Assembly (NCBI GenBank): GCA_000990565.1
Contig: LBQC01000012.1
Span: 1-39,327 of the forward strand
Direction of reading: 5' to 3'
DNA: 39,327 nt
DNA from: Candidatus Roizmanbacteria bacterium GW2011_GWA2_35_19
Lineage (GTDB): Bacteria; Patescibacteriota; Microgenomatia; UBA1406; GWC2-37-13
This document shows positions 4,659 through 34,610 of the stretch, piece after piece. The notes beneath the pieces are model-generated. The model saw nothing but the letters and a program-made list of their open reading frames with translations, ran no database searches and was not told where the DNA came from. Within the stretch, counting starts at the first letter, position 1. The number at the start of each line of letters is the position of its first letter. A program made the position numbers and the translations under genes.

Positions 4659-5642
4659 TTATTTATTACCCGAGTGATACTTTTCGTGTACTTCTCTCAG
4701 CCTAAAATTTGTAACATGGGTATATATCTGAGTTGTTGCGATGTTTTTGTGCCCTAGCATCTCCTGTACCGATCTCAGGTCGGCTCCGTGATTTAGTAGG
4801 TCAGTCGCAAAAGAGTGGCGGAGTACATGTGGGCCAATTCTAAATAGCAATCCTGAAATCTTTCTGTATTTGTCAATCATCCGCTCAACCGACCTGGGTG
4901 AAAGCCTTAAATTTTCGTTTGTTAATCCGCCTTTTGGTTTTGGCCCTGCATACCTGATAAATAGCGGCTGATATGGGTCATCGCGAAATTTTAAGTATTT
5001 AGAGAGCCATTCTTTGGCGCTTTTTGACAAAAAAACCACTCTCGCTTTACCGCCTTTTCCGATAACTCCAAACTCACCATTCTCAATATTAATACTTTCT
5101 CTATTGAGCCCTGTAAGCTCCGAAACCCGAAGGCCTGTCGAGAAGAGAACCTCTAAAATTGCTCGATCACGAAGACCGGATTTGTCCTTTAAGGGAACGG
5201 CACTGAAAAGCTTTTTAAGCTCATCCTCCGCGATGAACTTGATGTTTCGATCACGATTTTTACCCAGTTCTATCATCTCAGGGGATAGTACCGCCATCTT
5301 CTGTCTTATCAGGTAGCGGAGGAAGCTTCTGAGTGCTACCAGGAAGTAGTTTTGGGTTTGGCGCTTCAGGACACCCTTATATGGGTTCTTATAATCGTGC
5401 GAAATGAAAAGTCTGAAATTCCTCACCGTCTCATCAGTAATCTCCTCCACTTTTATTCCTGCCTCAGTGTAGGTATTACTTCCTTCAGACTTTGGACTTT
5501 CGACTTTAGGCTTTCGACTCTTGACGAGCCATTCTTTAAAAAAGTTCAAATAATAGCCGTACATTTTTACTGTTTTAAGCGACAGATTTCGATCGAGTTC
5601 GCAATATTCCAAAAAACGGAGAATGGCTTCGTTTATATCCAT
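4659..5642 (-). CDS. xerC: XerC/XerD-type tyrosine recombinase
   Basis: A site-specific recombinase, probably the one that resolves chromosome dimers at dif, although an element-borne integrase is possible. The N-terminal SAM-like core-binding domain covers roughly residues 1-115 and the catalytic domain follows. Visible catalytic residues are Arg in STGLRVSELTGL, Lys in GKGGKARVV, the HVLRHSFATDLL box, His in LGHKN and the nucleophilic Tyr in TQIYTHV. The 327 residues are slightly longer than the usual ~300. The excess is explained by residues 41-54 (KSRKPKVESPKSEG), which are encoded by AAAGTC-type repeat words at 5481-5522 and fall in the N-terminal domain. The gene sits 31 bases upstream of the DUF2079 gene. 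Confidence 0.9.
   Translation of the reverse strand: MDINEAILRFLEYCELDRNLSLKTVKMYGYYLNFFKEWLVKSRKPKVESPKSEGSNTYTEAGIKVEEITDETVRNFRLFISHDYKNPYKGVLKRQTQNYFLVALRSFLRYLIRQKMAVLSPEMIELGKNRDRNIKFIAEDELKKLFSAVPLKDKSGLRDRAILEVLFSTGLRVSELTGLNRESINIENGEFGVIGKGGKARVVFLSKSAKEWLSKYLKFRDDPYQPLFIRYAGPKPKGGLTNENLRLSPRSVERMIDKYRKISGLLFRIGPHVLRHSFATDLLNHGADLRSVQEMLGHKNIATTQIYTHVTNFRLREVHEKYHSGNK
5481..5522. repeat. GACTTT-word repeat translated inside xerC
   Basis: Tandem words (CAGACTTTGGACTTTCGAC, TTAGGCTTTCGACTC) identical in style to the arms at 2031-2135 and 35324-35433 are read as residues 41-54 of the recombinase. Only one arm is present here. Confidence 0.75.
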
Positions 5643-32044: not shown

Positions 32045-32845
32045 ATGATTGATATTCTTAAAAAAGCAGCTTTGATGGCCGGATCCGTCTTACTTAAGTA
32101 TTATCAAAAGGATTTAGTGATAGCCTACAAAAATTCTTCCCATAAAATGCTAGTAACCAAGGCTGATACTGAAGCCCAAAAAATCGTATTTGACGTAATT
32201 GTCAAGGAGATGGCTTTAAGGGGTTTTGAAAAAGATGATGTTGGTTTTATCGGTGAGGAGAATTTAAGTAAGCCCGGCCTCCATACTTTTGTGATTGATC
32301 CGCTTGACGGTACGACCAATTTTGCCTCCGGCCTCCCATATTTTGCGACATCAATCGGATATTTTTATAAAGGCGTCCTTCAGTCAGGGGTCATTTATGT
32401 ACCTGTATTTAATGAAATGTTTTATGCAGAACTTGGAAAAGGATCACATTATCAAAATGGTAATCGTTTAAAGATTGCTTATCAGCCATTAAATAAAAGT
32501 TTAATAAATGGTTATTTAAATTCAGCTGCTAAAATTCACAATCGACAGTTAGAAATTTATCAAAATTTTCTGCCTCAAATACGATCTCTAAGAAATATTG
32601 GGTCAATTGCCGTTGAGTTATCTTATACGGCAAAAAATATCTTCAATTTAAGCATTAATGGCCATGCGTGTATCTGGGATATAGCCGCGGGCTGTATAAT
32701 CGTTTCTGAGGCCGGTGGACAGATGGTTGACTGGCAAGGCAAGCCAATTGTCCCGCGGCTTACACAAGTCGACTACCAGACCATAACAGGTCACCCAAAA
32801 GCAGTTAAAGACATTATTGGATACTTTCTCTCTCCTATCGTGTAG
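32045..32845 (+). CDS. Inositol monophosphatase-family enzyme
   Basis: A metal-dependent sugar or nucleotide phosphatase of 266 residues. The motifs are GEENLS (metal Glu pair), IDPLDGTTNFASGLP (metal and phosphate site) and WDIAAGCIIVSEAGGQM (second site). The family includes inositol-1-phosphatase, CysQ-like nucleotidases and SuhB; these are not distinguishable here. The start is set at the ATG at 32045, because the protein begins at the family N-terminus (ILKKAALMAGSVLLKYY) and a -10 box lies just before. The earlier open frame overlaps the ABC gene in antisense and is not used. A long gene-free stretch follows. Confidence 0.9.
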   Translation: MIDILKKAALMAGSVLLKYYQKDLVIAYKNSSHKMLVTKADTEAQKIVFDVIVKEMALRGFEKDDVGFIGEENLSKPGLHTFVIDPLDGTTNFASGLPYFATSIGYFYKGVLQSGVIYVPVFNEMFYAELGKGSHYQNGNRLKIAYQPLNKSLINGYLNSAAKIHNRQLEIYQNFLPQIRSLRNIGSIAVELSYTAKNIFNLSINGHACIWDIAAGCIIVSEAGGQMVDWQGKPIVPRLTQVDYQTITGHPKAVKDIIGYFLSPIV

Positions 32846-33316
32846 TAAAGCAGGGTAGTAGTAGCAATTAGCGCTTCATATCAATATTTCCCGCATTTTC
32901 CTTACGTTAATTATAATCTTATAGTATGGTTTTTGACTATGAAGTTTAGGGAGAATAAATGGGCATTAATTACGGGGAATAGAGTAATAATAAATAATTA
33001 ATTCAATGAAAATTGAAAATTGAAAAATGAAAATTAGTAACCACTTCTCTCCTTTCAGCCACGGAAGACATCGTAAAAGATACAATTTACGACGTTATAT
33101 GTGTTTATTCCCTAAGGTGTTTATCACTCTAAAAATCCTGCTTTTTGGTCTTTGGGTTATAATGACCAATATCTTTATTGGAGAATCAAGACTGTGAGCT
33201 TCTCTCCCTATAGAGCTCCCAAATCAAGCAACTACTTAAAGGCTTCCAGTTCTATAATTTCAATTAATTAGATCCCAAGTTGCGCTCTTCTCTCAACCCT
33301 TATTAGAGATGTTTAT

Positions 33317-33532
33317 TTTAGATTGTAAATATGCTCTAAATATTACTTTTTGAAGCTAAATTCTTATAAATTAGCGTATGGCTTACTCCTTAAGATAGAC
33401 GCTACTATTATTTAGATTGTTATATCGCTCTATATTTGTGTTTTTGAAGCTAAATATACGCGTTTCTGTTTATTTAATATCTATCTATTTAGATTGTTAT
33501 TACAATCTAAATATAACAAAACAGCTTCATTT
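33317..33532. repeat. Three related hairpin-bearing units of about 45 bases
   Basis: Each unit begins TTTAGATTGT (33317, 33411, 33488). This starts a stem with TCTAAA or TCTATA 18 bases later. In the first two units TTTTTGAAGCTAAAT follows at the same distance, giving 45-base units 33317-33361 and 33411-33455. The third has an extended 10-bp stem (TTTAGATTGT/ACAATCTAAA). Spacing is 94 and 77 bases, so this is not a regular CRISPR array. Confidence 0.6.
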
Positions 33533-33639
33533 TCCCGCACTTGTCCACAGTAGATATATATACTACTTGGAGTATAGTGGCAATCTAATTCTTTTGTTTA
33601 GCCTCAATTCTATCACTGACTGAAGTCGTTTGATATTTG

Positions 33640-33655
33640 TCCGCCAGCTGGCGGA
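33640..33655. repeat. TCCGCCAGCTGGCGGA palindrome
   Basis: A perfect 16-base palindrome followed by TTTGTTTTTT on the plus strand, so it could act as a terminator here. The same 16 bases occur at 24423-24438 and, inside a coding sequence, at 37424-37439. Confidence 0.75.
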
Positions 33656-33794
33656 TTTGTTTTTTAGCCTCAACTACTACCCTATAGTTATTAATTAATT
33701 ATTACTATAGGATGTTTATTCACGTCCGTTACTTATTTAATTTACCTCTAAACTATTGAGAGTCTCCTCTATCCTCTACTTGGGGGTATATGTA

Positions 33795-34610
33795 TTACCA
33801 GCTTATTGAAAATATTGTTATAGCCAAAACGAAGCTCAAGACAAGTACAAATTCTCTAATTGTTTCCTGAAATAATCTTTGATCCATGTAGCTATAGATA
33901 AGTCCGGCCAAGCTATAATATGAGGCTGTCATGAAAAGTGAATAAATCGGTGTCTTAAGAGGAATGAATGATACTAACATTGCCAATTCTGATAATATAA
34001 GGGCTATTAATAAGGCATAATGAAGGACTTCTTTCTCTAAAGTCTTCTTGAGCCTTATGGTCCATAATAAATTTAATGCCATCAAAAATCCAATTATCCC
34101 CGCTCCCACTCCATTTATTAAAAAATTTGTCTTTGTGGCAAAAAAAAGATTAAATACAATAAAAGATATAATTGTTTGGTAAAGGAAATTTATGGAAAAA
34201 GCCGCTCTATAAAGCCCTAAGCTCTTCTCTACTCCGACATTAAAAATATTTGAACAAAGTAGAACCGCATAAATTGAGATTTCATAAAAAATAATGAAAG
34301 GCAATCTTGTCAGCCACCTACCGGGAAATAAAAAATAAAATAAATAAAAAGAGATCGTAGTCATTTCTGGCATTAGAAATAAGCCAAATCTACCCATTTT
34401 GTCAACCCCTTCGGCAAGTGAAAAATATGTGAAAAAATATGTAGCTATAAATAACAGTGGTAAGAAGAAAAATGCCTTGTCAAAGAAGAAAAAGGTCGAT
34501 ATAAATATAATTGATCCAAGAGCAAGTACTGAGATGACCAATCGTAGTCTTTTGTCGATCTTTAAGGCTCGTTTTTGGAATGTTTTAGGAACACTTTTTA
34601 AAAATTTCAT
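33795..34610 (-). CDS. Uncharacterised polytopic membrane protein
   Basis: A 271-residue integral membrane protein with seven or eight hydrophobic helices. Its short N-terminal segment is basic (KSVPKTFQKRALKIDKRLR). Lys and Arg in the loops suggest the N-terminus is inside. No catalytic motif is seen and I do not recognise the family. Its ATG overlaps the yebC stop by one base (TAATG), so it is translated from the same message as yebC. A functional link between them is not obvious. Confidence 0.75.
   Translation of the reverse strand: MKFLKSVPKTFQKRALKIDKRLRLVISVLALGSIIFISTFFFFDKAFFFLPLLFIATYFFTYFSLAEGVDKMGRFGLFLMPEMTTISFYLFYFLFPGRWLTRLPFIIFYEISIYAVLLCSNIFNVGVEKSLGLYRAAFSINFLYQTIISFIVFNLFFATKTNFLINGVGAGIIGFLMALNLLWTIRLKKTLEKEVLHYALLIALILSELAMLVSFIPLKTPIYSLFMTASYYSLAGLIYSYMDQRLFQETIREFVLVLSFVLAITIFSISW

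Follow-up and report, generated by a model that had tools for sequence, protein, structure and literature searches.

What does a stretch of 949 bp without a gene do between two convergent genes of Candidatus Roizmanbacteria bacterium GW2011_GWA2_35_19? In the window (the whole 39,327-nucleotide stretch of contig LBQC01000012.1 that was analysed), positions 32846-33794 lie between the stops of an inositol monophosphatase gene and a DUF5656 gene, and constitute the longest gap in the list of open reading frames (ORFs):

ends at 32845, plus strand: inositol-monophosphatase gene, left neighbour of the stretch
33795-34610, minus strand: DUF5656 multi-pass membrane protein, constant neighbour of the dif-type site described below (PF18900, E 5.8e-11)

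A first-pass annotation, made from the letters and the ORF list, had described a gene-free, non-coding stretch that stands out in the window and holds seven paired elements. It had proposed a noncoding RNA in its title, with a regulatory hub or a decayed element as further options, and had named as checks a homologous region in relatives, a covariance-model search and compensatory changes. Its description of the layout was borne out. The ORFs inside the stretch do not exceed 68 aa and the five largest gave nothing above cut-off in a Pfam search, on which ground a pseudogene or small gene was rejected; all seven paired elements (33071, 33145, 33196, 33317, 33488, 33640 and 33681) were found, those at 33145 and 33196 being weaker local inverted repeats.

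Is the stretch conserved? When the 949-bp query was compared with 20 genomes of the genus, one colinear homologue, besides dispersed repeats, was recovered in at least 18 of the 19 others, and all but one of these homologues lie, by ORF layout, directly downstream of the same DUF5656 gene. "Decayed element" was a wrong label. At one locus (G017, L036) the ORFs beside the element look short and broken in comparison with relatives, possibly through a frameshifted DUF5656 or an assembly error; a DUF5656 match is present in the named copy of that locus (L159). Two of the repeats in the stretch are not specific to the element, and such dispersed intergenic repeats are also frequent across the genus:

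33000-33035, plus strand: dispersed genomic repeat TTCAATGAAAATTGAAAATTG... (TTCAATGAAAATTG...), about 15 copies in the genome
33629-33657, no strand assigned: dispersed palindromic repeat with CCGCCAGCTGGCGG (the paired element at 33640), about 10 copies in the genome, terminator-like on the plus strand

A pattern scan of GTDB genomes with the most conserved palindrome, exact core required, returned 64 matches, of which about 58 are the same element, nearly all from Ca. Roizmanbacteria or other Microgenomates/Patescibacteria; matches in Pedobacter, Salinivirgaceae, two WWE3 and one viral contig were discarded as spurious. Because the scan demanded an exact core, the invariance of that core in the roughly 58 elements proves nothing, and the class-wide set was therefore picked by the protein neighbour instead: another 40 genomes, both inside and outside the family, were selected for their DUF5656 protein rather than for a motif, and the 1-2 kb downstream of its gene were extracted. 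DUF5656 occurs in 353 of the 374 genomes of the class and is the right-hand neighbour in nearly all Roizmanbacteria loci, whereas the left-hand neighbour varies. Its structure prediction yielded a confident 10-helix model, and comparison of that model with the PDB gave no meaningful match.

What, then, is conserved? The hairpin that had been annotated at 33071 consists of two 11-bp imperfect inverted arms round a 6-bp centre (11-6-11), the architecture of a dif-type Xer site:

33068-33095, minus strand: 28-bp dif-type Xer site, the sole 0-mismatch site in its own genome
33085-33095, minus strand: left arm ACGTCGTAAAT, 11 bp
33079-33084, minus strand: centre TGTATC, 6 bp
33068-33078, minus strand: right arm TTTTACGATGT, 11 bp

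Such an 11-6-11 site follows DUF5656 in 59 of the 67 class-wide sequences, always oriented in the DUF5656 sense, with a consensus of approximately ANGTCGYAMAW TNNNNC TTTTRCGACGT and a right arm that reads TTTTRCGACNT across the class; the remaining eight DUF5656-downstream regions, that of G146 among them, are without a recognisable site. One 0-mismatch site each was found in six genomes (G000, G010, G026, G084, G158, G204), where other matches stayed at the level of a reversed-pattern control. The exact pattern TCGYAMAWNNNNNNTTTTRCGA is present in 80 of 380 Patescibacteria genomes, nearly always once, against about 5 for the reversed-pattern control, so that the site type extends beyond the class; around ten phylum-level loci with the site outside the class, we found neither the array described below nor DUF5656. 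Since the position matrix of the 67-sequence set was seeded with sites first spotted in those very sequences, its scores are partly circular, and the independent support for the site is its uniqueness, its orientation and its neighbour genes.

Published dif sites offer a direct comparison. Shewanella dif, ACTGCGCACAATGTATATTATGTTAAAT, is composed of ACTGCGCACAA, TGTATA and TTATGTTAAAT (PMC2731167), and E. coli dif of GGTGCGCATAA, TGTATA and TTATGTTAAAT (PMC2731167, PMC3025954). The site of G084, ACGTCGCACAATGTATCTTTTGCGACTA, has CGCACAA and TGTAT in common with that of Shewanella. In general, the class sites are like the published ones in the left arm and the centre, but not in the right arm: the widely conserved XerD-arm TTATGTTAAAT is absent from TTTTRCGACNT.

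Between this site and DUF5656 lies an array of short motifs:

33317-33340, minus strand: 24-mer TTTRG-N14-CYAAA, unit 1; on the plus strand it is followed, after 8 nt, by TTTGAAGCTAAA at 33349-33360
33411-33434, minus strand: 24-mer unit 2, a degenerate repeat, with TTTGAAGCTAAA at 33443-33454
33488-33511, minus strand: 24-mer unit 3, a near-perfect inverted repeat
33541-33549, plus strand: DnaA-box sequence TTGTCCACA (minus strand, TGTGGACAA), kept in 19 of 19 aligned genus members
33681-33689, plus strand: CCTATAG motif copy 1 (CCTATAG/CTATAGG pair, the paired element at 33681), enriched class-wide
33703-33711, minus strand: CCTATAGTA motif copy 2, inverted; the motif is enriched class-wide
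33719-33729, minus strand: near-palindrome ACGNNCGTGA (ACGGACGTGAA), central NN free to vary, in 25 of 38 Roizmanbacteria-family sequences against 0.2 expected
33763-33781, minus strand: conserved purine tract AAGTAGAGGATAGAGGAGA beside the DUF5656 stop, pointing to dif

The DnaA box keeps one orientation in 57 of the 67 class sequences, against 3 antisense, and its word, TTATCCACA/TTGTCCACA, also occurs head-to-head in dnaA promoters of the genus. Judged from the box sequence alone, 33541-33549 is a candidate for DnaA binding, less certain than the identity of the site itself. In the promoters themselves (L046-L061), the head-to-head pair TTGTCCACA/TTATCCACA suggests DnaA autoregulation. At two loci outside the class, L363 and L364, the word TATCCACA stands 41-45 bp from where the dif match begins and after it, a hint that the association of dif with a DnaA-box sequence may predate Microgenomatia. 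Purine tracts are present in 56 of the 67 class sequences versus about 17 by shuffle; their use as KOPS that orient FtsK is not claimed, the leading-strand excess of purine octamers being mostly compositional (z <2.8).

Among 29 genomes of other families, the DnaA-box word was found in 23, in one orientation (1 antisense), TGATATAGTTTGATA in 22 (1 antisense), CCTATARTA in 18 and TTTTCACG in 16, whereas shuffling led us to expect 0-0.8. Where two copies of TTTTCACG share a strand, the distance between them is mostly 20-23 bp, roughly two turns of the helix. The array words (DnaA box, CCTATAGTA, TGATATAGTTTGATA and paired TTTTCACG) are class-wide, while their order and spacing differ between families. 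Words that recur, an order and spacing that shift, and the TTTTCACG spacing are together the signature of protein-binding DNA, and the array words read as sites of that kind.

Could the stretch nevertheless act as RNA? A structured noncoding RNA of about 900 nt on the minus strand, made as an extension of the DUF5656 transcript, would agree with the folding of 32846-33794, which surpasses dinucleotide shuffles (z -2.5 on the plus and -2.7 on the minus strand, 20 shuffles each), with the RNAalifold values (-66 minus, -56 plus), with one 24-mer position at which G-U changes on the minus strand outnumber A-C changes by 16 to 2, and with the conserved motif orientation. Because both strands fold better than their shuffles, the pairing excess is real but not strand-specific, and equal folding of both strands is expected of palindromic DNA. 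Rfam held no match at gathering, the best one in a search to E<=10 having E=3, far below cut-off. The longest predicted helix joins a purine tract with a pyrimidine tract, and in it a genome's own partner paired no better than that of another genome (p=0.59); the same was true of the repeated hairpins (p=0.30). The 24-mers, fixed at 24 nt in all 47 units of a 59-sequence set, keep their outer bases, while their inner arm positions vary independently, and the order of modules changes from family to family. All this makes such an RNA very unlikely. The covariance-model search and the comparison of own with cross pairing in two sets of helices, the latter bearing on compensatory changes, both lent no support to the title claim of the first-pass annotation; "regulatory hub" survives loosely. 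The conserved content has the look of sites in DNA: a recombination site of the dif type, short palindromes and DnaA boxes.

A dif site calls for recombinases, and the window encodes a candidate:

4659-5642, minus strand: XerC/XerD-type tyrosine recombinase, candidate cognate (PF00589 at 2.9e-41, together with PF02899)

Its TIGR02224 and TIGR02225 scores fall below the equivalog cut-off, the solved structures closest to it are those of E. coli XerD and of an XerD-FtsK fusion, and it lies about 28 kb from the dif site. A PF00589 tyrosine recombinase gene was present in 14 of 14 genomes tested and an FtsK gamma domain (PF09397) above cut-off likewise in 14 of 14. The recombinase gene lies 0.7-5.4 kb from the site in G026, G084, G248, G210 and G062, as it mostly does in the genomes of other families tested, whereas in most Roizmanbacteria checked it lies 16-55 kb away and is not adjacent. 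Several Roizmanbacteria carry a second tyrosine recombinase of about 290 aa, 2-4 kb from dnaA (L316 of G010, L320 of G139, L306 of G158, L317 of G204 and L322 of G149), which is possibly the XerC/XerD partner. In G146 (L305, L307), two tyrosine recombinase genes stand side by side downstream of DUF5656, where no dif is recognisable; perhaps this is a switched or invaded system.

The tyrosine recombinase gene found nearby in many genomes, and the left-hand neighbour that varies between Roizmanbacteria, would also suit an integration site, or the remnant of a mobile element dependent on Xer or a phage integrase. Synteny with DUF5656 is fixed across the class, however, and there is one site per genome, no cargo and no direct repetition of the site, so we find this explanation hardly credible.

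Where on the chromosome does the locus lie? Its own genome, in 52 contigs, gave no dnaA match, and the placement at the terminus rests on relatives. In six single-contig genomes of families other than Roizmanbacteria (G026, G062, G084, G146, G210 and G248) the site, which has the same orientation as the fork, and dnaA are separated by 0.356-0.381 of the genome; in Roizmanbacteria the separation between locus and dnaA is 0.26-0.30. GC skew, computed on sampled stretches of 12-20 kb, shows a sharp flip at the site in G026 (+0.032 to -0.063) and a sharp change in G062 (+0.112 to -0.001); in G210 it falls from +0.096 to about 0, and in G084, where the sign never changes, from +0.22 to +0.10; no sharp flip occurs at the site in G010, G158 and G248, which show a gradual fall only. 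Distance from dnaA and skew changes together pointed to the terminus.

The same data bear on two further alternatives. A chromosomal replication origin (oriC), or a second origin, was prompted by the perfect, conserved DnaA-box sequence, and AT-richness and iteron-like repeats are in keeping with it. It was rejected, as the skew minimum and dnaA are elsewhere, and we consider it extremely improbable: in G010, G026 and G210 the negative-to-positive turn of the skew is found at dnaA and not at the element (in G010 the element sits within a region of uniform skew), the element is 0.26-0.38 of the genome away from dnaA and has a single strong DnaA box, and the skew changes at it run in the terminus direction. 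A polar fork trap resembling Ter/Tus would make the array, rather than the 28-bp site, the functional core. It would account for the skew of G210 and G026, which shifts on reaching the element and is still weak beyond it, for an orientation that is constant relative to the fork, and for an array conserved class-wide. Yet no trap is needed to explain the core, given the 28-bp site and a recombinase close by, and in G010, G158 and G248 the skew continues past the element; we therefore hold a fork trap to be unlikely.

Our answer to the opening question, to which we assign a probability of about 85%, is that the stretch is the replication-terminus and chromosome-dimer-resolution locus of a Microgenomates bacterium, with the dif site at 33068-33095 as its core. 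The site is unique, oriented and conserved across the class, Xer and FtsK-gamma are present, and in several relatives it lies near a skew shift. From this we infer Xer binding and recombination at the 28 bp. One Xer tyrosine recombinase would bind each 11-bp arm. At the septum, DNA would be pumped by FtsK, which has a gamma domain and would also set off exchange within the 6-bp centre, and that exchange would turn chromosome dimers into monomers. With less certainty, the array motifs (DnaA box, CCTATAGTA, TGATATAGTTTGATA or its Roizmanbacteria counterparts, paired TTTTCACG and the 24-mers) may bind DnaA and other DNA-binding proteins, most likely to regulate recombination or to organise the terminus.

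How does this dif locus compare with known systems? Like the dif sites of XerCD (Proteobacteria) and CodV-RipX (Bacillus), it is a 28-bp, 11-6-11, intergenic site, one per chromosome and near the terminus, with an XerC-type arm (..CGCACAA / ..CGTATAA), a TGTAT centre and FtsK gamma. It differs from them in its second arm, TTTTRCGACNT instead of TTATGTTAAAT, which renders the site nearly a mirror image, in its large conserved flanking array, and in its position 0.26-0.38 of the genome from the origin rather than about 0.5. The TTATGTTAAAT-like XerD arm is typical of classical XerCD dif and is not seen here, and difSL, difH and archaeal dif differ too. With XerS/difSL of streptococci, the locus shares a recombinase gene close to the site in several other Microgenomatia families; unlike that system, it has a centre of 6 bp, not 11, FtsK gamma, and a second Xer-like gene elsewhere, often near dnaA. 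The arms are nearly symmetric, as in XerH/difH of Helicobacter and Campylobacter, but there are two Xer-like genes per genome and the Xer sequence of the window is closer to XerD than to XerH. In Thermococcales, archaeal dif/XerA is an 11-6-11 site with conserved flanks, 122-142 degrees from oriC (PMC2958812). The 11-6-11 form and the conserved flanks recur here, at 128-137 degrees in six genomes, together with a bacterial FtsK, an often adjacent recombinase and DnaA-box motifs in the flanks, in which the two systems part. Plasmid cer and psi are Xer sites flanked by binding sites for other DNA proteins. Their accessory sequences are the counterpart of the candidate protein sites here, which are chromosomal, extend over several hundred bp and use different motifs.

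A dif site is of a known kind; on the best reading, this locus combines one with an array specific to the class. The diverged second arm, the large array and the fixed DUF5656 neighbour appear to be undescribed, and we found no description of dif in candidate-phyla-radiation bacteria, whose chromosome maintenance is almost unstudied, in the open-access literature. A DnaA-box sequence and further motifs beside dif, next to DUF5656, raise the question of what assembles at the terminus of a minimal cell. Tentatively, dif may be the core of a class-wide terminus complex, with DnaA beside it, other sequence-specific proteins and perhaps DUF5656, a candidate by its adjacency; this larger proposal is doubtful, but if true it would link, in minimal cells, the start of replication with its termination and with attachment to the membrane.

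In practice, a terminus marker of exact sequence aids genome closing, the placement of replichores and the reading of GC skew, including in lineages with one-sided skew (PMC7143001), a pattern reported for other Microgenomates (PMC7143001). The chromosome of G084 (L323-L332) resembles them, its skew being positive all the way round and halved past dif.
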